DNA of 64,000 nt from Phycisphaerae bacterium (GTDB lineage: Bacteria; Planctomycetota; Phycisphaerae; Phycisphaerales; Phycisphaeraceae), in contig JAUHYI010000012.1 in the NCBI GenBank assembly GCA_030426385.1, forward strand, positions 1 through 64,000, given 5' to 3'. A program made the translations under genes and the position numbers. The notes beneath the pieces are model-generated. The model was not told the DNA's origin. It did not search any database and was given only the letters and a program-made list of their open reading frames with translations. Below, one piece after another: positions 6,980 through 39,210 of the stretch; position 1 is the stretch's first letter, and the number at the start of each line of letters is the position of its first letter.

Positions 6980-8407
6980 TTACAGGGGAAGTTTGAAAAA
7001 CTGATTGATGCGGCGCAGCAATTGGTGGGCCAGGCCGGTGCTGTCATCGTTGACCAGATGAGGTGTGGTAGCGGTGGCCTGTTGGGTTTGCAGTTGTCGG
7101 GCGGCGACGGCGTGGCTTAGCGTTTTGGCAATGGCCGGGCGACTGGTGAGGATGGATTCAAGCGACGATTTGTCGAGTTCATACAAAGAGCAGGCGGTGG
7201 CTGTGGTGACGGTGGCGGTGCGTGGGTCGCCGGTGAGCAAAGACATCTCGCCGAAGAATTGACCCGAGGTAAGACGTGCCACGCGGCGCAACGGTTTGCC
7301 TTCATGTTGGACGTGAACATCGAGCAGACCATCAGCGACGATGAAAAGCGATTCGCCGGAGTCGCCTTGTTTGACGACGGTTTGGCGTGGATCAAACAGG
7401 CGATGGGTCATGGACTGGGCCAGAGTCTGGATGTCCGTTTCATCGAGCGAGGCGAACAGGTCGGTGCGTTTGAGCATGACCAGTGGCATGTCTTCGCGAC
7501 TGATTTCACGCTCGGGCATCGGGCTGTAATAAACATCACGTTTAGGAAAGGGCACGCCCATGCCGGCAAAATAAAGTGCGCGGTTGACGGCTGCGGCGAC
7601 CCGGCTGCGCGAATGCACGACGTCGGTGAAACTGCTGACAAACCAACGGACCTGGTATTCAATGCCATCGGCACCGAACGAGGTCACGACGACATCGGGT
7701 GCCGGGTGTTCGAGCAAGCCCGCGGTGGAACAGACCGCACCGAGCAGGACGCGCGAGGCGTCTTCGATGGTGACGCCGTATTCCAGGGCGACGGCGAGTT
7801 TGGTTCGGAAGAAACCCTCGGGATGTTCATAGTTGATAACGGTGGACTGGCTGAGTTCGCTGTTGGGAATGATGACCATGGTCTGGTCGAGGGTGACGAG
7901 ATAGGTGGCTCGCCATGTGACTTCGTTGACGCGACCATCGATGCCGTTGACGTTGATCCATTCGCCGACGCGGAATGGTTTTTCAACGTTGAGCGCGATG
8001 CCGCTGAAAAAGTCGAGGATCATGCGCTGGAGCGCGATACCCAGGACGATACCGAGCACGCCGGAACTGACGATCAGGCCGTTGATGGGTTGTTGGAAGA
8101 CGAGTGTGAGAATGCAGACGAAAACAATGATGGCGAGTATGGCACGAACCAGATCCACGAGCAGGCGTGGTGCGGCGTGGCCGACGCGTTTTTCAATGAC
8201 ACCGCCCCAGAAAAACACATCGAGCAGTCGCCAGATGAGCCAACCGGCAGCGATGAGAAACCCCGTGGCAATAATCGCGCGTGCATCGCCTAAGTTAGGA
8301 TTCTCAATGCCGAACCCGTTGTATCGGGTTGCAAAATAGCCCATGCCAGCGGTGAAAATGGCAGGAGCGATGATGGATGAGATGCCGCGTCGTTTGTATT
8401 TGGCCAT
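6980..8407 (-). CDS. MscS-family mechanosensitive channel with C-terminal cyclic-nucleotide-binding domain
   Basis: The 475-residue inner-membrane protein has N-terminal membrane helices (about residues 12-30, 43-65 and 88-108). The MscS pore helix and beta domain follow (ILSSGVLGIVLGIALQ-like stretch, DFFSGIALNVEKPFRVGEWINVNGIDGRVNEVTWRATYL, then IIPNSELSQSTVINYE). From about residue 318 to 430 there is a Crp/CNBD beta-roll (LFASLDETDIQTLAQSM, QGDSGESLFIVADGLLDV, GQFFGEMSLLTGDPRTATVTT). The phosphate-binding cassette GEMSLLTGDPRTATV keeps the Glu and Arg that bind the cyclic nucleotide. This suggests an osmotic-release channel gated or tuned by a nucleotide. It stands alone on the minus strand. 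Confidence 0.92.
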   Translation of the reverse strand: MAKYKRRGISSIIAPAIFTAGMGYFATRYNGFGIENPNLGDARAIIATGFLIAAGWLIWRLLDVFFWGGVIEKRVGHAAPRLLVDLVRAILAIIVFVCILTLVFQQPINGLIVSSGVLGIVLGIALQRMILDFFSGIALNVEKPFRVGEWINVNGIDGRVNEVTWRATYLVTLDQTMVIIPNSELSQSTVINYEHPEGFFRTKLAVALEYGVTIEDASRVLLGAVCSTAGLLEHPAPDVVVTSFGADGIEYQVRWFVSSFTDVVHSRSRVAAAVNRALYFAGMGVPFPKRDVYYSPMPEREISREDMPLVMLKRTDLFASLDETDIQTLAQSMTHRLFDPRQTVVKQGDSGESLFIVADGLLDVHVQHEGKPLRRVARLTSGQFFGEMSLLTGDPRTATVTTATACSLYELDKSSLESILTSRPAIAKTLSHAVAARQLQTQQATATTPHLVNDDSTGLAHQLLRRINQFFKLPL

Positions 8408-20644: not shown

Positions 20645-21034
20645 GGGGCCGACCGGTATCGACCGGACAGGGAAGGTTGCTCGTCGCACGTCGAGGTCGC
20701 ACGTTGGCCTCGTTAAACCACGTGCACCAATTTAAATGCCAACGATAGCAATATCGCTGGTCGCATTGGGTTTGATAGCCCAGTGCGCCTGGCTGCCTAA
20801 TTTATTAGGTACCAAACGTTTGCTTGCCGCTTGTCCGCGGTGACAGGCAAATGTCATAATCTGCGGAATCGCCCCTCGCCGACGCCTTGGCGTCGAGGGG
20901 TTAAAAAATACCCAGGCTGGATCAAACTCATGCTGTCGCTGGCAGGGGGTTGATCGAGATTAAATCAACGACTATGCGTGTAGAAGCGTTCAGCTGACTG
21001 TCTCGGCACGGGGGTTCGAATCCCCCCGGCTCCA
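20645..21034 (+). ncRNA. ssrA: Transfer-messenger RNA (tmRNA)
   Basis: Ribosome-rescue RNA of about 390 nt. The 5' end GGGGCCG pairs with CGGCTCC at the 3' end to give the alanyl acceptor stem, with discriminator A at 21034; CCA is not encoded. The T-arm is GGGGGTTCGAATCCCCC. The tag frame most likely begins at GCC 20738 and ends at TAA 20798-20800. It gives a long 20-residue tag that starts ANDSN and ends PVRLAA, so the LAA-type degron is kept. A hairpin (CCCCTCG..CGAGGGG) at about 20873-20901 fits a pseudoknot. The 3' end from 21006 on is duplicated at 39090 by island insertion; this copy is complete. Confidence 0.95.
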
Positions 21035-21126
21035 CTGTTTACGATGACAAGCATTGGCAGAAATATTCTGCGTATGCCTGAAATCACCAGAAATAGGACC
21101 GCCCAGCTTTTGGGTGGTCCTTTTTT
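21006..21126 (+). repeat. Left attachment repeat (attL): tmRNA 3' end plus terminator
   Basis: These 121 bp are identical to 39090-39210. They contain the last 29 nt of ssrA, a 61-bp spacer and the intrinsic terminator GGACCGCCCA..TGGGTGGTCC with T-run (21096-21126). Weaker similarity continues for about 75 bp further right. The 18-kb interval between the two copies is the integrated island. Confidence 0.92.
21096..21126 (+). terminator. Intrinsic terminator of ssrA
   Basis: Stem GGACCgCCCA with TGGGtGGTCC, loop GCTTT, followed by six T. The same terminator is repeated at 39180-39211. Confidence 0.9.
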
Positions 21127-21270: not shown

Positions 21271-22299
21271 TAGAGCGTTTTCACCTTTTCCCTAGCGTGT
21301 ATCCGCAGTGCCAGAAGAAGTGGATCGCGTCGGTCGGGGTGATGGTGTCCATCAATCTTTGCGTGTCACCCCACAGCTCTTTCACGTCGCGATGTCTGGC
21401 CGAACGCAGGCTCTGCTTGAGCTTGGAAAACGCCAGCTCAATCGGGTTGAGGTCCGGCGAGTATGGCGGCAGATACACCACGCTCGCGCCCGCCGATCTG
21501 ATCGCATGCCGTACCCCCGCCACCTTATGTGAGCTGAGGTTGTCCATCACCACCACGTCCCCTTCACGCAACGTCGGCGTCAGGACCTGCTCGCAAAACG
21601 CCACGAACATATCGCCGTCGATCGCGCCGTCGACCGCCGTCGACCGTCGTCGAACAACGCATGCCATCATGACCCAACGCCGCGATCAGCGTCGTCGTTT
21701 TCCAGTGGCCGTGCGGCACCTTCTCGATCAATCGTTCGCCACGCGGTGCTCGGCCACGCAGTCGTGTCATGTTAGTCTTGGCCCACGTCTGGTCGATGAA
21801 CACCAAGCGATGTGGGTCAAGTCCCAGCTGTTCTAATCGCCACCGGGCGCGTCGCTCGGCGACATCGGGTCGGTCTTGCTCAGCGGCGTGTATCGTCTTT
21901 TTTTGTAAGTGAGTTTGAGTTGGACCAGCGCCTTGTGGATCGCCGACAACGCCACCTCGACGCCGAGGGCGTCACGCAATTCTCTCAGCGTCGCGTCGGG
22001 GGCCTGAGCGACCAACTCGGCAAGCCTGTCACGGCTGAACTTGCGTGGATAATGCCCGCCTTGCCTGGGCCGCAGATCGCCGCGTTCTCGACGATGCTGC
22101 TTGAGCCGACGGACCCATGCCGGGCTGACCGAGTACTTGTGTGCGACCTGCTTGGTCTGCAACCCCGCGTCGCAATCGTTGATCACCCGACGCCGCAGAT
22201 CCATTGAGTATGCCTGTGCCATATCGACCTCCTTGTCGTGAAGCCTATGTCATAACCGATTCATGACCGTGGCGCTAGAGAGAAGGTGGATCCGCTCTA
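21271..22299 (-). mobile_element. IS630-family insertion sequence
   Basis: A 1.03-kb element with terminal inverted repeats: TAGAGCGTTTTCACCTTTTC at the left and the reverse complement of TAGAGCGGATCCACCTTCTC at the right, matching at about 22 of 27 positions. A TA stands at each end, the TA target duplication typical of the IS630/Tc1 group. Removing the element and one TA joins the integrase reading frame exactly (GHSITV to SGKHY), which proves the insertion point. Confidence 0.93.
21281..22222 (-). pseudogene. IS630-family transposase, -1 frameshift type, disrupted by a 10-bp duplication
   Basis: The N-terminal half (from ATG 22222) is the helix-turn-helix region: MAQAYSMDLRRRVINDCDAG, KQVAHKYSVSPAWVRRLKQHRR. 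At a run of seven A on the minus strand (21898-21904) a -1 shift gives the expected continuation KKKTIHAAEQDRPDVAERRA, so this is probably the programmed frameshift used by some members. The DDE domain has VFIDQTWAKTNMTRLRG (first Asp), VVVMDNLSSHK (second Asp) and PPYSPDLNPIE (Glu). Between the first two, a 10-bp tandem duplication (21625-21644, GTCGACGGCG twice on the minus strand) shifts the frame. Removing one copy restores TTVDGAIDGDMFVAF. This copy is therefore probably dead. Confidence 0.88.
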
Positions 22300-22898
22300 A
22301 CCGTGATGCTGTGGCCAATCCAATGACTGACCGCATACTGCGGATACGTCATGGCCAACGCTTTCTCGCAGGACTGACGCAGCGTCTGCCATTGACCATT
22401 CCATGGTGTGATCCCCGCCCGCGTAATAATCCTTCGTGTCGGCCGAGTCATCCCACCACCCTTGCCGCCGATCGTGATCAAGCGTTCTTCGCCATCCTCT
22501 ATCTCGTCAAATCGAGCTTGCAACAGCACCATGAGCTCGGGCGTGATCGGAACGATGCGTTGCTCGTGGCCCGCGTGGTGTTCAGTCTTCGGACTACGCA
22601 CGGTCAGTCGTGAATGCTCGAAATTCACGTCAGCCAAAGTGAGCGGATGGGATTCACTGGTAATACGCAAGCCGGCGTAACGCGCCAAACCAAACAGCAA
22701 TCGCCATTGCGCATTCGGACACGCATCAATCACGCGGGCAATATCATCAGGCGTTACATAGTGCGTAGTGCGAATTTTTGCTCGGGGTCGATCCTGATTT
22801 GAGTAGGGCAAATGGATTTTCTTCGATCAATTTTCGCCGCACCGCTTCAGCAATCAGTGTTTTAGCATTGCCGCAATGTGTCTTGATCACATTGTAGA

Positions 22899-24444: not shown

Positions 24445-25919
24445 GCTTCAATGGGGCCATGCGTGTTAACGCATGGAAAGGAAGCTCAGGGTCGCGGGTG
24501 AGGTTGCCCATTAACGCTTCAATGGGGCCATGCGTGTTAACGCATGGAAAGATAGGCCGCGAGATATGGGCTCCAGAGGACCAAAACGCTTCAATGGGGC
24601 CATGCGTGTTAACGCATGGAAAGTTCACCGTGGTCAACATCCTCGCCGACAACGGCGCAGCTTCAATGGGGCCATGCGTGTTAACGCATGGAAAGTTGAT
24701 CGGGTTTTACGTTTCCCGATCGTTATGAAAGCTTCAATGGGGCCATGCGTGTTAACGCATGGAAAGAATGGCGAGGCATTTTCGGCCCCCTGCCAAGTGC
24801 TCGCTTCAATGGGGCCATGCGTGTTAACGCATGGAAAGTGGCTGCCATGCTGGGGGCAGTTGGCCACATATCAAGCTTCAATGGGGCCATGCGTGTTAAC
24901 GCATGGAAAGTGCGGCCTGGAAAACCGCATCACTCACGGAGGAGAGGCTTCAATGGGGCCATGCGTGTTAACGCATGGAAAGCGAAAACCCACGCAAGAT
25001 ACGGTTGTCTTCAGGACCGCTTCAATGGGGCCATGCGTGTTAACGCATGGAAAGGAGGCGCAGCGATTGCTAAACGCCGAGAAGTCGCGGCGCTTCAATG
25101 GGGCCATGCGTGTTAACGCATGGAAAGCCTGTGGCGATTGTGGGCCTGCTGCGTGTTTGGTCAGCTTCAATGGGGCCATGCGTGTTAACGCATGGAAAGT
25201 AGGGGTTGGGTGACCCCCAGCCCCTAAAATGCCAGCTTCAATGGGGCCATGCGTGTTAACGCATGGAAAGATGAAGCTCTACGCCACCGCCATAATGCGG
25301 CGGGTTGGCTTCAATGGGGCCATGCGTGTTAACGCATGGAAAGTTTCCCCGGCATGGATGTAACCAGGCTCCGGACTAACGCTTCAATGGGGCCATGCGT
25401 GTTAACGCATGGAAAGGGAGACGCGGCGGCCTGTTCGCCGTCCTATGCACGAGCTTCAATGGGGCCATGCGTGTTAACGCATGGAAAGCAACCCACCCCA
25501 AACGGTGCCGAAGCCCGAGCGATGCTTCAATGGGGCCATGCGTGTTAACGCATGGAAAGATGACTACATGGCCCGCAACGTGCTGGCCCAATTTGCTTCA
25601 ATGGGGCCATGCGTGTTAACGCATGGAAAGGGGCAGGATCGCTATACGAAGCCAACCGGATAATAAGCTTCAATGGGGCCATGCGTGTTAACGCATGGAA
25701 AGGTCGACCGACATCGACTACAACGTATACGAATGCGACGCTTCAATGGGGCCATGCGTGTTAACGCATGGAAAGTTCCTCCACAAAACCTGCTAAGCCA
25801 CTGTCTAGCTAGCTTCAATGGGGCCATGCGTGTTAACGCATGGAAAGTACTTAGTCAGTTTGGATTAGAAGCGGGAGAAACTGGCTTCAATGGGGCCATG
25901 CGTGTTAACGCATGGAAAG
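24445..25919 (-). CRISPR. Type I-G CRISPR array, 21 repeats and 20 spacers
   Basis: Twenty-one 36-bp repeats, all identical by eye, with 20 different spacers of 35-37 bp. On the plus strand the repeat starts GCTTCAATGGGG, then has a perfect 8-bp hairpin CCATGCGT, loop GTTA, ACGCATGG, and ends AAAG. Read on the minus strand it ends CCCCATTGAAGC, giving an ATTGAAGC 8-nt end that resembles known type I crRNA 5' handles. I therefore assign transcription to the minus strand, the same direction as the cas genes, with the leader at 25920-26154. No degenerate terminal repeat is present to confirm this. First repeat 24445-24480; last 25884-25919. Confidence 0.96.
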
Positions 25920-26154
25920 AGCGAGTGCTGTAACCGTTTGGGGGGCCGTGGGATCGAACGGGGCTAGCGAGAGGTTGGAGGTTGTGGGGGGGAATAGACT
26001 GTGGTTCATGAGGAAAGCGGCTCGTAAGTATTGACTTGTCAAAGAGCTCGAGAGGGTACTGGGATTATCTTACCACTGGGGTGCTCGATGGGGTGTTCGA
26101 GGTTGGATTTAAGTTTGAGTTTTAAGTCTGATTTTTTAAGGCTGAATTTTGTGT
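25920..26154 (-). promoter_or_regulatory. Presumed CRISPR leader between array and cas2
   Basis: A 235-bp gene-free stretch, AT-rich toward cas2 and G-rich next to the array. It contains the palindrome TTGACTTGTCAA (about 26032-26043), which offers a TTGACA-like -35 on the minus strand, but no good -10 at the right distance. Leader status is inferred from repeat polarity and cas2 adjacency. Confidence 0.5.
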
Positions 26155-26463
26155 TCATACGATGAACGTTGCGGTCATGGGATTGTACGCTTTGCCCACG
26201 GTTTGGATCAAGGTTTGGCAATCGGTTTGTGCGGCTCCAAGATCGATGAGCATCACCTGATCTTCGTTGTGGTGGACGATGTCGGTCAGTGTGGCCATCA
26301 GGTCGATGCGTTCACGTTTGGTCAGTTGGCAAACGAATACGCTGAACTGGACGTGGTCGCCATAGTCGTGGAGTGTTTTGAAGATGTGGTTTCTGCGTTT
26401 ATCGTTGCTGACATCATAGGTCACGACGTAGTGTCTTCGGTTGGTGGTGGGGTTGTGATTCAT
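26155..26463 (-). CDS. cas2: CRISPR-associated endonuclease Cas2
   Basis: The 102-residue ferredoxin-fold protein of the spacer-integration complex; two Cas1 dimers clamp a Cas2 dimer. The first strand HYVVTYDVSNDKRRNHIFKTLHDYGDHVQFSVFVCQL carries the family Asp (YDV) and the YG..VQ.SVF wording. It ends IQTVGKAYNPMTATFIV. Its start overlaps the cas4-cas1 stop by 4 bp. It is the last gene of the operon, next to the leader. Confidence 0.95.
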   Translation of the reverse strand: MNHNPTTNRRHYVVTYDVSNDKRRNHIFKTLHDYGDHVQFSVFVCQLTKRERIDLMATLTDIVHHNEDQVMLIDLGAAQTDCQTLIQTVGKAYNPMTATFIV

Positions 26464-28289
26464 CGTGTGACGATCTCCGGCAGGTTGGGGATGTCTTTTC
26501 TAAGCCAACGGGAGAACAGTCGTGCTTGGAGTTTGATCATCGATCGCCAGGAACAGCGATAGCCGAAGAGCGGGTGGGTGACGAGTTGTTGTAGCCTGTT
26601 TTCGTAGGCCCGGATGAAATTTTTTCGACCATCAGGTTTGAGTATGCAGCCTGCTTTGGAGCGGGTGAAATGCGAGGCGCGGGTCATGCTGGTATTGATG
26701 GCAGTGATGACGGCTGAGTCGACAATAACGGGTCGAAATGGTTCCATGAGATCAAGCGACAGGGCGGGGCGACCGTGTCTGGGTTGATGGTACATTCCCC
26801 ACCAGGGATCAAGACCTTCTGCCAGTAGTGCGACGGTGAACTCCTTGGCAAGCAAGGCATAGCCAAAGGAAAGCAATGCGTTGACGGGGTCTTTGGGTGG
26901 GCGACGGTTTCTGCCGTTAAAATCCCAGGTCGCGTCGAAATCTTGAGGCTTGAGCATGTGACTGAAGTGTCGGAAATAGTGTGCGGCCACCATGCCTTCG
27001 TGGCCGAGCATTGAGGGGATATCGGTCACCTCAGGTAACCGGTCAATCAATTGCTGCATGTCAGCAAGAGCGCTATCGAGGGATGCAGAACTGTTGGCAT
27101 TGCGGCGAAGCATGGTGCGTTGATTGTTTGCTTTGGACGCGACGAGATGGCGGGCGAATTGTAGTTTGAGATTGGGGGCCTGGGCTACCTGAAATTGTGC
27201 GGCCCGATCGAACGCATTACGCAGGTTGATGCCATGGGTGATGCCGTGGAACCAATGGCTCATGGAAAGATGGACGATAGGGATGCCCGCTTCACAGAGT
27301 GTGTGGATGGCTTGGGCGGAGATGCCGATGTTGCCGCAGATGACGAGGTGGCTGATGTCCTTGAGCTTGACGGTGTTGAGTGTTTGGCTTTGCATGCGAA
27401 CGGTAATGTTTTTGCTTGATTTTCCGATGAAAGCGCCCTGTTTCTGGATATAGAACGGTTGCGCTTCGTCACGTGCCGGATAGAGCCGGCGGATAGCGTG
27501 GTCGTGTTTATCGTTAGCAATGGAATCGATATTGGGGTCGAGATAGGTGTTGAGATCTGCAGCACTATCAGAATTAATATCTGTGTCAGTGATCGCAAGT
27601 GGGCGTTCCAATGCCATCGCAGTCAACGTTTCATCTGGCAGGCAGATGCCGTTGAGCGAACAGCCGTGACATTTGGGACTGTTTTCCAAAGGTGGGGGCA
27701 GACGAGTTGCGAGGGTGGCTTGTTTGGCCTGATCGAGAAGTTCGAGCGTGCGTTGTTCGAGTTCAGGTGTGAACAAGATCGGGACACGTGTGCGTGACGT
27801 GGCGAAGTAGAGGAAGCCGTGGTCGCAGTGATAACCCTGTTCACGCAATAGCAGGCCTTGTGCCATGAGTTGGATGCGTTCAGGTTCCCATGAACGTTGC
27901 GGATTGTCGGGTACCCGGCCACGTTTGGTTTCGACGGGTACCGCATCGTTGTCGGCCATGCTGACCAGATCGAGCTTGGCAGTGATACCTAATTCTGTGC
28001 TGGTCAATGGTATTGATCGGACGATGGTGGGTGGTTCGTCGCCATCGTCGGATTTATTGTCCGCGATCGATTTTGAAGTGATTTCGCTGGAGTCCGCATT
28101 GGCATCTGGCAGCACGTGATCCAATTGATCGACGCGTCGATGCACGCGTTGGCCATCGCGTGTGTAGTGATTGTCTTCCCAGCGTCCCTCGACATGCATT
28201 AGATGAAACAGTCGCGGGCAATAGGCATATTCATTGAGCATACGAAGGGGGAGCAGATCGTTCGCAGTCAGATCGTTAGTTTGAATCAT
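26460..28289 (-). CDS. cas4-cas1: Cas4-Cas1 fusion, PAM-selecting integrase
   Basis: The 609-residue fusion is typical of type I-G/I-U loci. Residues 1 to about 230 are Cas4, a RecB-like nuclease with an Fe-S cluster: Cys24 in EYAYCPRLFHL, PVETKRG as the nuclease Glu-x-Lys motif, and the C-terminal cysteines CHGCSLNGIC. An insertion rich in D, N and S interrupts both the Cas4 part and the linker. From about 280 onward is Cas1: FYIQKQGAFIGKSSKNITVR, LGHEGMVAAHYFRHF with the active-site Glu, and WWGMYHQPRHGRPALSLDLMEPFRPVIVD with the His and Asp ligands. All catalytic residues appear intact. Fusions of this kind are known to select PAM-containing prespacers. It is 23 bp after csb2. Confidence 0.95.
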   Translation of the reverse strand: MIQTNDLTANDLLPLRMLNEYAYCPRLFHLMHVEGRWEDNHYTRDGQRVHRRVDQLDHVLPDANADSSEITSKSIADNKSDDGDEPPTIVRSIPLTSTELGITAKLDLVSMADNDAVPVETKRGRVPDNPQRSWEPERIQLMAQGLLLREQGYHCDHGFLYFATSRTRVPILFTPELEQRTLELLDQAKQATLATRLPPPLENSPKCHGCSLNGICLPDETLTAMALERPLAITDTDINSDSAADLNTYLDPNIDSIANDKHDHAIRRLYPARDEAQPFYIQKQGAFIGKSSKNITVRMQSQTLNTVKLKDISHLVICGNIGISAQAIHTLCEAGIPIVHLSMSHWFHGITHGINLRNAFDRAAQFQVAQAPNLKLQFARHLVASKANNQRTMLRRNANSSASLDSALADMQQLIDRLPEVTDIPSMLGHEGMVAAHYFRHFSHMLKPQDFDATWDFNGRNRRPPKDPVNALLSFGYALLAKEFTVALLAEGLDPWWGMYHQPRHGRPALSLDLMEPFRPVIVDSAVITAINTSMTRASHFTRSKAGCILKPDGRKNFIRAYENRLQQLVTHPLFGYRCSWRSMIKLQARLFSRWLRKDIPNLPEIVTR

Positions 28290-28312: not shown

Positions 28313-29980
28313 TTATGTGGCGGGTGTTGTTGATTCGTGATTCAGCGATGTGTCGGGTACAAATAATCCCAAACCATAATGGCTGGCATAACCCAGTGTG
28401 ATTGGCCCGGTCACGGGTTGGTCGAATGTCAGTCTGATACCAAACGCCATGTTGACGGGCGGTTGTTGTTTATCATCTGGGCGTGTGCGGATGAATCGAA
28501 GCAGGCGACGCTCAACGAGCTCATCGTTATCGATCTTCTGGATGGTTGTGGGCGTGGGAAAGGGTTGGCCATCCGAAGTTTGTCGCGTTTCCAATTCGGT
28601 TCGAATCTGATTTTCCAAGCTGTTTTTCCCGTCTTTTTTGACAAAACGTGCGGGTATAAAAGGCGTGAGGCTGACCCATGTGCGTGATTGTTCCAGGATG
28701 GGCACGCGCTTGCCGTTGCGTTGTTTGAGTTGCCTGCGAAAGTCATCGAGTGCACCGAATCCGACACAGGTGGTGGCTAACGGATTGGTTTGGTTTTTTG
28801 TATAGGTCCATCGCTGACGCATGATCGCTTGCTGGGCAAGGCTATCGAGTTTCATGGGCGCGTAAATGATGATGTGATCGAGTCGACCATCCTCATCAAG
28901 ATCGAGCGGCAGGTAGTGGGCATGTTTATGATTGGTTTGAAGTGGTTTTTTTTGCTCATCCATGCCGGTTAGGGCAGGGCAAAATGATTGGCTAAGTTGG
29001 CTAATCACCGCTTTGTGTAGCAGATCAGCCTGCGGAAGACAGCGGATGAACGAAGGTAGTCCTGTGTTGGCATGCGACGTATCAGAAGCGAGGTTGATGA
29101 GCGCCGCTTCAACGTGGGCGGCCTCTCGTATGGGACTGGAGGGTCGCGATGGTTTACGCTCGAGTGTGCCAGGGGGCTGTGTGTATAGTTTGTACTGTGT
29201 GCCGGGCGGCTGGCTCCAGCCATGGTCTTGAAAATCAGACGTGTCGCTGAGCAGACATGTGAGTAAGTCGATCGGATAGATCGCTTCGATTTTTTTTGTC
29301 GCTTTGGCGATTTGTGATTTGCTGGGTTTTTTGCCTTTCTTTTCAGCGGTTTGTTGTAGTTCTAGCAATGCTTGCTGGACATGTTGTTCGATGACTGACT
29401 GACGCCATGTCGCATAATCATGAGCAGGCACTGGGCCCAATATTGAAACCTGTTGCTTACCAAAATCGATGGGCGACGATGGTGCATCATCGCTGGGTTC
29501 GCACCAGGTAGGGTCTGATGGCGTATCCTCAATCAATGTACCGCTGACCCAACTCTCCGCTCGACCCAGGTAGCCAAGATCGGACACCAGTTGTTCGAGC
29601 AATTGTCTTTCTGATTCGCTTAGTTCCACGTCGTAATGAATCAGTAACGGATCGTGGTTGGATGCTAGACGTATGAACGCGTCAATGACCTTGGTGGTTT
29701 TTTGGTTTTTGCCTTCCACGTATGGCATGTAATGACGGGTGTGGGCAATTTGTCCTGCGGGCAATTTGTAGCGGGGCCACGTCGCAGCAAGTTTGTCGAT
29801 GAGCGATCGGGCATCTTCGGGAACTTGCGGCCAATGATGCTTGTTAAAACCGGTGGCCAACAACGCGCGCAGCAGTCGCCACGGACAAGGCGGCCACTCG
29901 ACTTGGCCTTCGTTGACATGAAGGCCCCAAGGCGTGGCATGGTATCGACCCGCTGTAAATTTCAATTGAATCGTCGGCAT
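28313..29980 (-). CDS. csb2: Type I-G Csb2 (Cas5-Cas6 like) protein
   Basis: The 555-residue product matches the Csb2/GSU0054 family by start (MPTIQLKFTAGRYHATPWGLHVNEGQVEWPPCPWRLLRALLAT), the SWVSGTLIED region and the C-terminal half (HAHYLPLDLDEDGRLDHIIIYAPMKLD, then RTWVSLTPFIPARF, and PITLGYASHYGLGLFVPD). In type I-G this protein is regarded as a fused Cas5-Cas6. It caps the crRNA 5' handle and processes pre-crRNA. The conserved HYLP and the final GHASHFGLGLF-type segment (YASHYGLGLF) may include the catalytic His of the Cas6 part; I infer this. It lies 12 bp downstream of csb1. Confidence 0.93.
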   Translation of the reverse strand: MPTIQLKFTAGRYHATPWGLHVNEGQVEWPPCPWRLLRALLATGFNKHHWPQVPEDARSLIDKLAATWPRYKLPAGQIAHTRHYMPYVEGKNQKTTKVIDAFIRLASNHDPLLIHYDVELSESERQLLEQLVSDLGYLGRAESWVSGTLIEDTPSDPTWCEPSDDAPSSPIDFGKQQVSILGPVPAHDYATWRQSVIEQHVQQALLELQQTAEKKGKKPSKSQIAKATKKIEAIYPIDLLTCLLSDTSDFQDHGWSQPPGTQYKLYTQPPGTLERKPSRPSSPIREAAHVEAALINLASDTSHANTGLPSFIRCLPQADLLHKAVISQLSQSFCPALTGMDEQKKPLQTNHKHAHYLPLDLDEDGRLDHIIIYAPMKLDSLAQQAIMRQRWTYTKNQTNPLATTCVGFGALDDFRRQLKQRNGKRVPILEQSRTWVSLTPFIPARFVKKDGKNSLENQIRTELETRQTSDGQPFPTPTTIQKIDNDELVERRLLRFIRTRPDDKQQPPVNMAFGIRLTFDQPVTGPITLGYASHYGLGLFVPDTSLNHESTTPAT

Positions 29981-29992
29981 GTTTTATCTCGC

Positions 29993-33218
<3,226 letters not shown>

Positions 33219-33222
<4 letters not shown>

Positions 33223-35993
33223 GCCTGGGCTCCTTCTCGATCAAGTAGCGGGTCTGGTGATTGCTGGGGTTGACTTGAAACATGAATGTCGGCTGCACGT
33301 AACAGGCATTCGAAATACGCCAGCACGAATGGCCCGTGTTGTTGTTTGAGTTGATGCACACGATCGCTCCAGCTTGGCCCGTAGCGTGATGAAAGTCCTA
33401 TCGTCGCAGTTTCAAGGTGCAAACTGAGGGTTGGTATGCCGCAGAGCGTGCCGTTGTGAGAATAGAGTTGCGTCGACGGTAGTGTGTCATCTTCGCGTAC
33501 GCCCAAGATTGGTTTGTCGGTTTTTGTATCGCCGCGCAGGAAATATTTCTGGTCGTGGGATGTGTGTGGCCAGCTTAGGCGAACCTTGCCGTGGTGGGTG
33601 CATACGAGGTAGACGAGCAGGTTGAATTGCTGGGCGTCGAGTGCGTTGAGTTCATCCGCAAGTGGACAGTTTTGCAACGACTCGTGCGTAGGCATTGGTT
33701 TTAGAACGCCCATTTCAACCAATTGTTGGTAAGGGCCCAGTAGCGCTTCGTGGTTGGGATGGGTTTGGTGCAACAGTTCGAACAAAGCCAGTGTGCTGGC
33801 AAGCTCATGTCGAAAACCACGGCGATAATGGTTGGTTTCGACATCCATGCAATACATGTTTTTGAACGAACACCATGCTTCGGATGGTGCCTTGGCAAGA
33901 TGGGTTTGTTCGAGATTTTCGAGTCGGTTCGCAATGCAATTTTGAAAGGCCAAATGCGCTTTGCCCCAGTCATGAACTCGGCCTGCCAGGTTAAACAATG
34001 CCTGTTGGTCTTCGGATAGCACTAATCGTTTGGTGAGATGATTTAAATGGTTGGCCACTTCCAAGCCATGCGTGGCGATGGTTTGCCATTGGTTTGGCGT
34101 TTCGCTTTGGTCGTCACGTCCTTGAGCAGCATCGGCCGTGGCCGCGGTGTCAGGGGTGAGAGGGGTATCGGGGGCATGGCTATCTGTTTGGAAACCGGTA
34201 TGATGTTTGCCGGGTTTTTCGCCGGTGTAACCGCGTGTTGTGTCGTAACCACCCCATGCTTTGTTGATGACGATCGTCTGGCCCGGATAGCAATCACTGC
34301 GGTTTAATTTTTGCCAGTGACCGTCCACATAATTCCATGTCCAGGCGCGACAATTTGGTTTTAGTTTATTGTTATCAAACAACCATTTCTGCGCTTTATA
34401 AATAGGCACCGGGCATAGCGCATTGCGCTGCGGGCGATATTCCTTGTCAGGCGACTTCGCGTCGTCAGGCAGATCAAGCCAACACGCCATGATGTCACGC
34501 TCTTGGCCACTGCGAATAAAACGACTGATGTCCAGATCAGCACCGGTCAGGTCTGCGGTGGTGTCGAATAATTCATCGCTCTCTTTTTCAGTCAGCAGAT
34601 GCAATGGTTCGTAGGGATATAACGTCTTCAGTTGTTCTGGCTTGTGCGCTTTTAGTTCCGCTTCAAATTTTTCCAAACTGGCAATACCCATATCATCCAG
34701 TTGACTCAGCGCTTCACGAGCTGCGTTTAATGTCGGCAGTGCGTAGGGCAACGCGGCTTTATCCTCGCTCGCATCGCGATCGATCACGATCACCTGAGCG
34801 CTGCCGCCGTATCGGGCAGCTCGTCCTGCCCGTTGGACCAGACTCGGCCAAGGCGCGAGTTCGGTGATCAAGGTGGTGGCGGATATATCCACTCCTGCTT
34901 CGACCACTTGCGTTGCGATCAGGATCATGTGCGTGTCGGGGTTTTGGCAATGGGCTTTGTTGAGAAAATTGTCGACCCAGTTTTCGCGTTCCATCCCACG
35001 AAATCGGCTATGAATCAGGTGGATTGTCGGTTTGTCTGTGGCTTTTGACAGTTGCTTGTTCAGCGCGGCATAAACGTCGGTGGCTGTATCCACGCGATTC
35101 ACAATCGCCAGCGTCACACGTCCGGCCTGGGGTTGCGGTGTGGCGTTGTGATGTGCTTGCAGTATCGCATCGGCCAGTTGTGTCGATTGTTGGTCATCTT
35201 TTGCGGGAATACACTCAACACGAACGGGTTTGCGTATGTCCCACAACGCACCTTGGCGTTGGTCGGCTGGTATACAGGTCTGTGAGTTGGCCAACGGTTC
35301 GACCCATGATTTTGAATCCACCGTTTCCAACCACTGGGGTTGCAACGTGGCGCTCATCCACCATGTGAAACAAGGTCGCGTTACTGGTGTTGCGGATGTT
35401 GCAGGGGTGGCGGAGTGTTGTACATACTGTTGGCGAAAACTTTGCAACTGGACACTCGTGGCCAGTCCTACATCCATGAGTTGCACTTCGTCCATCACCC
35501 ACAAACAATCGTGATTGAGCAAGCCATAGTCCATGGGCCAGCGTGCCCGACTGGCGGCATAGCCCCGGTTCAATGCCCGCGACAACAGCATGTCCTGCGT
35601 ACCGATGATGATCGCGGGTGTGTGAGGCTGCAAATGCCATGCGTCAGCCTTAGCTCCGCCCATGAGTAGATGTACGTTTACGCGCGGCTGTTCATTCGTT
35701 AATTGTGCGCTGACCGTCTTGGCCAGGTGCAATGCTTCGGCATATGTCTGCTCTGCCAACACACGCATGGGCAGGCACCAGACCAACCGCATCGGCCACG
35801 CGTGATTCTGTTGTTGAACACGGTGGTACAACCACGCGCCCAGCACGCCATCGGTTTTTCCTAGCCCGGTAGGAATCCGAATCAGGCGATTGTCGCATGC
35901 GTCTGGCGTTGCCAATTGGGCTTGCCACGGATGCGGGGTATGCCCTTGCGTGGTCAGTGTCTTAAAAAATGAGGTGTAGGTATCCGTACTCAT
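33219..35993 (-). CDS. cas3: Cas3 helicase-nuclease with C-terminal HD domain
   Basis: A 924-residue signature type I protein that unwinds and degrades target DNA after Cascade binding. The helicase is N-terminal: Walker A IPTGLGKTDG (about 40-49), motif Ia LPMRVLAEQ, DExH-type box WVMDEVQLMD, then MSATL and the second RecA domain with STQLADAILQA and QVVEAGVDISA, QRAGRAARYGG. The HD nuclease is C-terminal, from about residue 650, with LFNLAGRVHDWGKAHLAFQ as the His-Asp metal motif and VCTHHGKVRLSW. This helicase-HD order is the reverse of E. coli Cas3 and fits type I-G. All motifs are intact. It is the first certain gene of the operon. Confidence 0.95.
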
Positions 35994-36052: not shown

Positions 36053-36607
36053 TCATTGGGATGCAGATGATGCGTTAGCGTCGGGATCAATTGGCCGAGC
36101 GGTTGTCTGTGGGATGGGGAGAGTGGGTGGGGGGGCTGATAGTTGGCGTTGCAACATTCGCCGTGCATTGAACAGGCTGATCGCCTTGCCCGCGTCGGCC
36201 GCATGCTGGCATCGGGTGGCCACTTGTTCGAGACATTGTTTGTGAAACCCATGGAAATCGACCCTGGAAATTGCGTTGTCTGTCTGATCGGATGTATCTG
36301 CGTGGCGGCCACGGGACGGCATTGTTTCAGAAGCACCCCCCCCCACCCTCACCCCCACCCTCACCCCCACCTCCCCGACTCCTCCGCCTCCCCCGGAAAC
36401 GCCCCCGGAAGCGTCTCCGGTAATCCCCTCCGCCCCCTCCGCCCCCTCCGCCCCCTCCGCCCCCCCAGTCCCCCCGCTAGTGCTTCCGAAACAATCCCTC
36501 TGGTCGCGAGTCCCACCATCCCCATTCGCGTGATGCGTCGGCTTATCAGCCATCAGACCCTCAATGGTCATTATGTCATGACGGCCAAGGCATCCGTGCC
36601 AAGGCAA
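36053..36607 (-). CDS. Doubtful repeat-rich protein upstream of cas3
   Basis: An open frame of up to 184 residues ends 60 bp before cas3 on the same strand. The middle is a low-complexity Gly/Ala/Glu/Val stretch (GAEGAEGAEGAEG, VGVRVGVRVGGG) written by 9-bp and 12-bp tandem repeats at about 36334-36475. The ends look more ordinary (FHGFHKQCLEQVATRCQHAADAGKAISLFNARRMLQRQL). I do not recognise a family. It could be a real leader gene of the cas operon, or an accident of the C-rich repeat. The start is unclear (Met20 MADKPTHHANG possible). Confidence 0.3.
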   Translation of the reverse strand: MPWHGCLGRHDIMTIEGLMADKPTHHANGDGGTRDQRDCFGSTSGGTGGAEGAEGAEGAEGITGDASGGVSGGGGGVGEVGVRVGVRVGGGASETMPSRGRHADTSDQTDNAISRVDFHGFHKQCLEQVATRCQHAADAGKAISLFNARRMLQRQLSAPPPTLPIPQTTARPIDPDANASSASQ

Positions 36608-36803: not shown

Positions 36804-36876
36804 TAACCGCGGTGGGATTCGAACCCACAACAAACCGTTTAGGAGACGATCGCCTCTGCCGTTGGGCTACGCGGTC
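36804..36876 (-). tRNA. tRNA-Arg (anticodon CCU)
   Basis: The 73-nt gene folds well. Acceptor GACCGCG pairs with CGCGGTT (first pair G-U) and discriminator is A. The D-arm has a GGC 3' side. The anticodon stem ATCGT/ACGGT has loop CTCCTAA, anticodon CCU, reading the codon AGG. Variable loop is TTGTT. The T-arm is GTGGG TTCGAAT CCCAC. CCA is not encoded. It is inside the island and has its own strong promoter. AGG is typically a rare Arg codon, which matters because CreT toxins of CRISPR loci are known to act on rare Arg tRNAs. Confidence 0.95.
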
Positions 36877-36883
36877 TAATTTT

Positions 36884-36919
36884 TAGTGGCCCATGCTCCA
36901 ACATGGGTCACTTTTTTTG
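36884..36919 (+). terminator. Terminator-like hairpin in the tRNA leader region
   Basis: On the plus strand GTGGCCCATG, loop CTCCAA, CATGGGTCAC is followed by seven T. It would stop plus-strand transcripts. On the minus strand the same hairpin lies in the 5' leader between the tRNA-Arg promoter and the tRNA. Confidence 0.6.
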
Positions 36920-36929
36920 TTGTCTATGG

Positions 36930-36958
36930 ATATTACCGGTTATAGCAATCAATGTCAA
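36930..36958 (-). promoter_or_regulatory. Strong sigma-70 type promoter of tRNA-Arg
   Basis: The minus strand reads TTGACA (36953-36958), a 17-bp spacer, then TAATAT (36930-36935). This is one of the best consensus promoters in the window. It points at tRNA-Arg about 45-50 bp downstream. Its -35 box touches the candidate crRNA target at 36956-36990. Confidence 0.8.
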
Positions 36959-36993
36959 CGAATTTGCATCATATAAATTTAAAAACTAGCGAA
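36956..36993 (-). promoter_or_regulatory. Candidate crRNA-like target site (partial protospacer with TTC)
   Basis: On the minus strand the site reads TTC followed by GCTAGTTTTTAAATTTAT. The pseudo-spacer of the mini-array at 37167 begins GCTAGGTTTTGATTTATC. Positions 1-5 and 7-10 match and position 6 differs, the position not read in type I seeds. Allowing one gap, about 19 of the first 25 bases match. TTC fits a TTN-type PAM. The site covers AT-rich DNA with a TATAAA (36972-36977) usable by a plus-strand transcript. It also touches the -35 box of tRNA-Arg. Confidence 0.55.
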
Positions 36994-36994
36994 G

Positions 36995-37130
36995 TTGTGT
37001 TTTTTGCGGCAAGCTGGACGGCCGCCAATTTAACTGTTTTGAACCAATAGTCGCGTGTATGCGTCAACTTTAGGTAGTATTACTAAGCAAAAGGTAAGTT
37101 AGTGCGTTGTCTGCGATTCATGGGTTGGGC
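36995..37130 (+). other. Possible CreT-like toxin RNA segment between target site and mini-array
   Basis: In CreTA modules the toxin RNA lies between the promoter targeted by the antitoxin and the degenerate CRISPR unit. This stretch has that position and length. Only very short frames are present, for example GTG 36998 (17 codons: FFAASWTAANLTVLNQ after the start) and GTG 37054 (15 codons). None has a clear ribosome-binding site, so no toxin can be named from sequence. Confidence 0.25.
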
Positions 37131-37278
37131 ACGCATTTATTCGAATACGCATGGCCCTATTGAAGTGCTAGGTTTTGATTTATCAGATACTTCCATGCGA
37201 TTTTTCCGCACGGGCATCCGCTCGTGCGGCCCCATTGAAGCCTCGGGATGACAGCCAGTCGTCCCGAGGCTATTTTTT
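37131..37278 (+). ncRNA. CreA-like degenerate CRISPR mini-array RNA
   Basis: Two degenerate copies of the array repeat flank one 35-nt pseudo-spacer on the plus strand. Pseudo-repeat 1 (37131-37166) keeps ACGCATGGCCC.ATTGAAG (18 of the last 20 bases); its 5' half is lost. Pseudo-repeat 2 (37202-37241) keeps TTTCC at the start of the hairpin and GGCCCCATTGAAGC at the end (14 of 14). Its stem has become CCGCACG/CGTGCGG with a 10-nt loop, so base pairing is kept although the bases changed. The pseudo-spacer length equals that of the main array (35-37). A 14-bp terminator hairpin starts inside the last repeat bases. This looks like a crRNA-type RNA under selection. An alternative reading places a repeat 5' half at 37190-37199 (CTTCCATGCG), giving a 23-nt spacer. 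Confidence 0.75.
37240..37278 (+). terminator. Intrinsic terminator of the mini-array RNA
   Basis: GCCTCGGGATGAC, loop AGCCA, GTCGTCCCGAGGC, then TATTTTTT. The stem is 14 bp with one G-U pair. It begins in the last two bases of pseudo-repeat 2. Confidence 0.9.
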
Positions 37279-37287
37279 CGAGATTTT

Positions 37288-39089: not shown

Positions 39090-39210
39090 GCACGGGGGTT
39101 CGAATCCCCCCGGCTCCACTGTTTACGATGACAAGCATTGGCAGAAATATTCTGCGTATGCCTGAAATCACCAGAAATAGGACCGCCCAGCTTTTGGGTG
39201 GTCCTTTTTT
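39090..39210 (+). repeat. Right attachment repeat (attR)
   Basis: Identical over 121 bp to 21006-21126. It holds the last 29 nt of ssrA and the full terminator, without the rest of the tmRNA gene. It marks the right boundary of the island. Confidence 0.92.

Follow-up and report, generated by a model that had tools for sequence, protein, structure and literature searches.

It is probable that the region 37126-37280 (+ strand), beside the cas operon of a type I-G CRISPR-Cas system, encodes a CreR/CreA-like guide with which Cascade would repress a promoter at a TTC-flanked site. The window is the whole stretch of DNA that was analysed, 64,000 nucleotides of a Phycisphaerae bacterium.

The mini-CRISPR and the type I-G system beside it

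The window contains a complete type I-G (formerly I-U) CRISPR-Cas system (Table 1). The 36-nt repeat of the main array is composed of an 8-bp hairpin, CCCC and the 8-nt handle ATTGAAGC and is thus a type I-G repeat. An exact direct repeat of 121 nt is found at 21006-21126 and at 39090-39210 and begins within the 3'-terminal part of the tmRNA gene. A phage-type (tyrosine) integrase gene (22278-22811, - strand, PF00589) is located just inside it. Because of this flanking repeat and the integrase gene, the CRISPR system, the mini-CRISPR and the tRNA gene described below appear to travel together on an 18-kb island at ssrA. An IS630-like transposase (21284-22222, - strand) with two ORFs (DDE_3 and HTH_Tnp_IS630) lies beside the integrase within the island.

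Homing of a transposon to a site beside a tRNA gene by a delocalised crRNA, as in the type I-F and V-K CAST, was also considered, since an atypical crRNA adjoins a tRNA gene here (CAST homing: PMC11656645). We regard this as extremely unlikely. In contrast to a CAST, the type I-G system is complete and includes cas3g, the mobile element seen here is a tyrosine-integrase island at ssrA, the target is inside the element and not at its edge, and no Tn7-like core gene was found among the ORFs scanned.

In the mini-CRISPR, two ectopic repeats surround a pseudo-spacer near the cas operon, as in CreA and CreR. The hairpin of the second repeat, psiR2, reaches -20.6 kcal/mol. The type I-G Csb2 cuts 4 nt beyond the hairpin, leaving an 8-nt 5' handle (PMC9638904). 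The predicted processed RNA would consist of the 5' handle AUUGAAGU, the guide and the 3' hairpin of psiR2. Since psiR1 has no proper hairpin, the processing by Csb2 on the 5' side is uncertain. The promoter scan of the region found no clear promoter for the guide.

Table 1. Features of the type I-G locus, the mini-CRISPR and its candidate target in the window
Feature	Position	Strand	Basis
cas3g	33219..35993	-	NCBIfam above cut-off
csx17/cas8g	30934..33222	-	NCBIfam above cut-off
csb1/cas7g	29993..30937	-	NCBIfam above cut-off
csb2, cas5-cas6 fusion, predicted processing enzyme	28313..29980	-	NCBIfam above cut-off
cas4g-cas1g fusion	26460..28289	-	NCBIfam above cut-off
Main CRISPR array, 21 repeats CTTTCCATGCGTTAACACGCATGGCCCCATTGAAGC	24445..25920	-	Repeat reading
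Mini-CRISPR, two repeats, stand-alone	about 37126-37241	+	Repeat reading; intrinsic terminator at its end
psiR1, degenerate type I-G repeat ACGCATGGCCCTATTGAAGT	37126..37166	+	3' arm and 8-nt handle retained; hairpin without its 5' arm
psiS, guide of the crRNA-like RNA	37167..37199	+	Position between psiR1 and psiR2
psiR2, diverged repeat	37200..37241	+	10-bp hairpin CCGCACGGGC/GCUCGUGCGG; handle CCCCATTGAAGC intact
Intrinsic terminator of the mini-CRISPR	37239..37280	+	14-bp stem and T run, directly behind psiR2
Candidate target (protospacer-like site) of the guide	36955..36990	-	Guide match, shuffles, genome-wide uniqueness, relatives
PAM TTC of the target	36991..36993	-	Sequence reading
Sigma70-like promoter TTGACA-17-TAATAT	36930..36958	-	10/12; -35 at the PAM-distal target edge
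Leader hairpin GTGACCCATG-TTGGAG-CATGGGCCAC upstream of the tRNA	36885..36912		Terminator-like when read on the + strand
Extra tRNA-Arg(CCU), first gene behind the target promoter	36804..36876	-	ARAGORN, Rfam
Small ORF (MADK...) between the tRNA and cas3, without known family	36053..36553	-	Homologous to L128:4804-5022

Match of the guide to a promoter site

The guide GCTAGGTTTTGATTTATCAGATACTTCCATGCG has its first base at 37167 (+ strand) and starts with GCTAGGTTTTG. On the - strand, 176-177 bp from the guide start, a TTC is followed by GCTAGTTTTTA (longer reading GCTAGTTTTTAAATTTATATGATGCAAATTCG), running downwards from 36990; the - strand reading of the whole site, 36993-36955, is TTC-GCTAGTTTTTAAATTTATATGATG. 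As a previous sequence-only reading had stated, the guide and the site are identical at positions 1-5 and 7-10 and mismatched at position 6. At position 11, where the guide has G and the site A, the pairing with the target strand is an rG:dT wobble.

The match is far above chance. The motif TTN-GCTAG-N-TTTT occurs only once in the 5.19-Mb genome, at the target site itself. The sequence-only reading had proposed a computed null, and a null of this kind was run with the flipped positions ignored in the scoring. When 250-1000 bp upstream were searched, 20-32 of 20,000 shuffled guides (0.10-0.16%) equalled the real score, and among decoy guides cut elsewhere in the window 8 of 18,030 did so. The similarity reported previously beyond the seed, 19 of 25 when one gap is allowed, lacks significance, as 40% of the shuffled tails do equally well. 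The TTN-type PAM that had been proposed for type I-U agrees with the TTN of type I-G (PMC9638904). For CreA, experiments showed that pairing of nucleotides 1-5 and 7-11 and a TTC PAM are required (PMC8501985).

The site is located at a promoter. TTGACA-17-TAATAT is the top-scoring promoter in the region, and the earlier claim that the site touches the -35 box of the tRNA-Arg promoter holds. Thus, as for CreA and CreR, a PAM-flanked partial seed match (TTC, positions 1-5 and 7-10, wobble at 11) lies in a promoter. The same reading had placed the site over a TATAAA on the + strand. This motif is indeed present, but it has no acceptable -35 and did not come up in the promoter scan, so that a repressed + strand promoter was not upheld.

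A narrow CreTA, in which a toxic small RNA CreT would be made on the + strand from the TATAAA promoter under the target (36985-37110), is unlikely. The order of promoter, spacer region and creA is like that of the haloarchaeal creTA, and a TATAAA is at hand, but the missing -35 and the strong promoter facing in the opposite direction argue against it. In one of the related loci (L063), only about 20 nt separate the target from psiR1, too little to accommodate a creT. The region 36980-37130 was rejected as a structured CreT RNA because it folds worse than its own shuffles.

The same device in other type I-G loci

The presence of such pairs was analysed in 159 other type I-G loci. Of these, 40 came from whole genomes within the phylum, 80 from GTDB genomes spread over many phyla and 39 further, distinct ones from the class and order. 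Both strands of the loci were scanned for ectopic handle sequences, and the 40-300 bp upstream of the guides for TTN-flanked sites. This gave 20 pairs, 16 of which score 12 or more. At the 71 sites with a good handle, 16 real pairs reached 9 or more; in 20 shuffling rounds two pairs came to 8.5 and none to 9. L047, L155, L153 and the second hit in L185 were excluded (low score; palindromic-looking or GC-rich coding sequence), and L143, which points away from its own cas operon, and L040, which has another arrangement, were counted with reserve. At least 15 of the 159 loci are convincing, with an ectopic repeat pair and a guide matching a TTN-flanked site 50-200 bp away. The device was found in Planctomycetota, Myxococcota, Verrucomicrobiota (Opitutales) and Proteobacteria (Lysobacterales). 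A sigma70-like promoter towards the cas genes (at least 9/12) is near the target in 11 of 17 loci, compared to 14% in shuffles.

Over 18 pairs, guide and target are identical at positions 1-5 in 18/18, at positions 7, 8 and 10 in 17-18/18 and at positions 13-17 in 15-17/18 cases. At the flipped positions 6 and 12 the identity is 4/18 each, which is chance level and agrees with the previous proposal that position 6 is ignored. Since positions 6 and 12 were left out of the scoring, their chance-level identity indicates without bias that every sixth base is ignored by the effector. L038 and L067 match at 1-5, 7-11 and most or all of 13-17, and L063 at 1-5, 7-10 and most or all of 13-17; all three are preceded by TTC and mismatched at 6 and 12. 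The pair in the window is the weakest match among the pairs found, with 9 to 10 seed pairs and without the full 13-17 block. A crRNA-like RNA that would act by partial seed pairing, as in CreA, had been suggested before, and this suggestion is well supported by comparison with the CreA seed rule (PMC8501985) and with the relatives, at least 15 in number, that carry such a pair.

The closest relative is L128, from a MAG of the Phycisphaeraceae, which shares with the window the gene order WYL regulator, mini-CRISPR, target, cargo, MADK ORF and cas3. The seed TAGAAGTAGAG and the target TAGAAATAAAG of L128 both differ from those of the window and still match each other; they have therefore changed together. 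In psiR2 of L128, the 10-bp stem and the 4-nt loop are kept and 3 of the 10 pairs are changed on both sides, showing covariation. A chance match or a functionless leftover of a decayed array would fit the short pairing in the window and the orphan repeats that are common near arrays. We consider it very unlikely in view of the unique site, the recurrence in other phyla, the pattern of the flipped positions and the covarying psiR2 hairpin.

Different genes follow the targeted promoter. In L073 and L173 it is directly followed by cas3, in L190 by csx17 and in L038 by csb1, and in L042 csb1 is further downstream. In L134, L172, L185, L214 and probably also in L067, the cas genes are preceded by a sigma-like gene as the first one behind the promoter. 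The sigma-like proteins of these five loci are small, resemble sigma-70 region 4 and are encoded at the start of the type I-G operon; they are candidate cas activators. In L063 a 102-aa HNH nuclease gene (L063:15537-15845, - strand, PF01844) with its own terminator is behind the guided promoter, a candidate for a CrePA-like toxin in type I-G. In L128 (4444-4647) and L234 (3970-4200) uncharacterised proteins of 67-76 aa are encoded there that are 34% identical and form a new family. The L128 protein had no match in Pfam and NCBIfam, and no remnant of the L128/L234 protein was found in the window.

Proposed repression and related systems

From these observations we infer the following course of repression. 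The transcript of psiR1, guide, psiR2 and terminator would be processed by Csb2, and the crRNA-like RNA would be loaded by the type I-G Cascade. The loaded Cascade would then bind to the TTC-flanked site 36993-36955 through the seed pairs 1-5 and 7-10/11. As these would be too few pairs for cleavage by Cas3, the only effect of the binding would be to block the strong - strand promoter beside the site. This promoter would drive the extra tRNA-Arg(CCU), and its transcript would probably continue through the MADK ORF into the cas operon. The search for - strand terminators from the tRNA to cas3 gave none, so that the tRNA, the MADK ORF and the cas genes may form one transcript. This would result in a negative feedback: abundant guide-loaded Cascade would turn the transcript off, and the transcript would be turned on once Cascade is lost, titrated or inhibited by an anti-CRISPR.

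CreTA, CreR and CrePA are known members of this class of mechanism (review PMC12737573). The device in the window is like the CreTA of haloarchaea (type I-B) and some bacteria in having two degenerate repeats around a pseudo-spacer and a 5'-TTC PAM. In CreTA, seed pairs 1-5 and 7-11 with the promoter lead to repression by Cascade without cleavage (PMC8501985); by analogy, pairs 1-5, 7-10 and the wobble at 11 would lead to repression in the window. Unlike CreTA, the window has a type I-G effector and no recognisable tRNA-sequestering CreT, and what follows its strong promoter is a tRNA gene and not a rare-codon mini-ORF. The likeness to CrePA is confined to the HNH nuclease gene of L063, a candidate toxin gene. 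The window differs from CrePA, as it has no protein toxin and the first gene is the tRNA.

CreR has been described in type I and V-A systems (PMC12737573). As in CreR, a crRNA-like RNA would guide Cascade to a promoter on the cas side in the window. Pure autorepression of the cas genes, with the tRNA as a passenger or a leader cistron at the start of the transcript, is a rival to regulation of the tRNA itself. The guided promoters directly before cas3, csx17 or csb1 in the relatives, the loci with a sigma-like gene and then the cas genes, and the missing - strand terminator are in its favour. In contrast to CreR, however, the first gene in the window is a tRNA gene, cas3 is 1.0 kb downstream of the targeted promoter, and a strong -35/-10 and the leader hairpin are right beside the tRNA. 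Taken as our share of opinion on the output of one switch, which overlaps with the preferred repression of the promoter by Cascade, pure autorepression falls a little short of an even chance.

Shmakov and colleagues reportedly surveyed stand-alone repeat mini-arrays that partially match promoters of cas or cargo genes, and their mini-arrays are like the device of the window in architecture and target logic. In the literature searched, outside of which this survey lay, we found no type I-G case of CreTA, CreR or CrePA, no statement on CreR for type I-G and no tRNA gene as a CRISPR-regulated unit. As far as found, a tRNA gene under CRISPR control would be new. The class of mechanism is already known, and the type I-G case with a tRNA as the first cistron would be new, although its priority is uncertain.

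Repression by Cascade at this site would bring RNA-guided self-regulation into type I-G, which of all type I subtypes has been studied least. The at least 16 natural guide/target pairs reveal, through evolution alone, the base positions that are read by the type I-G Cascade, which are 1-5, 7-11 and 13-17 but not 6 and 12. They also suggest that one guided promoter slot can hold varied outputs, namely cas genes, sigma-like activators, a nuclease or a tRNA, and it therefore becomes testable how cas autoregulation is linked to addiction modules.

The tRNA gene behind the targeted promoter

The genome has another tRNA-Arg(CCU), and except for Met none of the other anticodons is duplicated in the draft genome. 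The extra copy is closest to the tRNA-Arg(UCG) of the genome (56/73). In the D loop it has GGCAG, compared to GGATA in all five other Arg tRNAs, and among the six tRNAs with Arg anticodons it is the only one without A20. A20 is a main identity element for the bacterial ArgRS. Because A20 is absent, the extra tRNA may be a poor substrate of ArgRS. The codon read by it, AGG, is used less than any other Arg codon in the genes that were counted, with 0-2.8 per 1000 codons except in the MADK ORF, where the 166 codons include four AGG, two of them inside a G-rich repeat. Both ends of the MADK ORF are conserved in L128 (72 aa), and in the window it is enlarged by a G-rich minisatellite. The leader hairpin resembles a good terminator when read on the + strand, yet there is no known + strand gene upstream of it.

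Three explanations for the tRNA were rejected. The cas genes do not need AGG codons, as they contain 0-1.8 AGG per 1000 codons. A close phage-tRNA relative was not found; the matches, to a Gordonia phage tRNA-Leu, cover only 62 nt with 81% identity. The reading that the tRNA is a usual neighbour conserved within the same family was likewise dismissed, because only generic tRNA matches were obtained.

Tentatively, the Cascade of the mobile type I-G island may silence the island-borne, AGG-reading tRNA without A20, which would be turned on when Cascade is lost or blocked and act either as an addiction or abortive RNA that disturbs translation or as a translation-rescue RNA. In an addiction module, the tRNA-Arg(CCU) or its transcript would be a harmful or emergency cargo that is silenced by Cascade, in the way CreA silences CreT or, in CrePA, a protein toxin, and binds the cell to the island. 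The redundancy of the tRNA, its D loop, the rare codon it decodes, the HNH nuclease or small uncharacterised protein in the same slot of L063, L128 and L234, and the integration of the whole locus as an island would all agree with this. On the other side, no tRNA gene is found at the slot or under guide control in the other type I-G loci examined, and the relatives mostly have a cas or a sigma-like gene there. In addition, the step from the loss of A20 to a lost recognition by ArgRS is presumed. Again as an opinion share on the output of this one switch, overlapping with the best explanation, an addiction module is possible but rather doubtful.

A tRNA-Arg in L045 and the other tRNAs found are located away from any guide/target pair. 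In L042, a sequence resembling the 3' half of a tRNA, GCGAGGTTCGACTCCTCGACCCCTCCA (about 7500-7560, - strand), is present between the targeted promoter and csb1 and is possibly the remnant of an attachment site.
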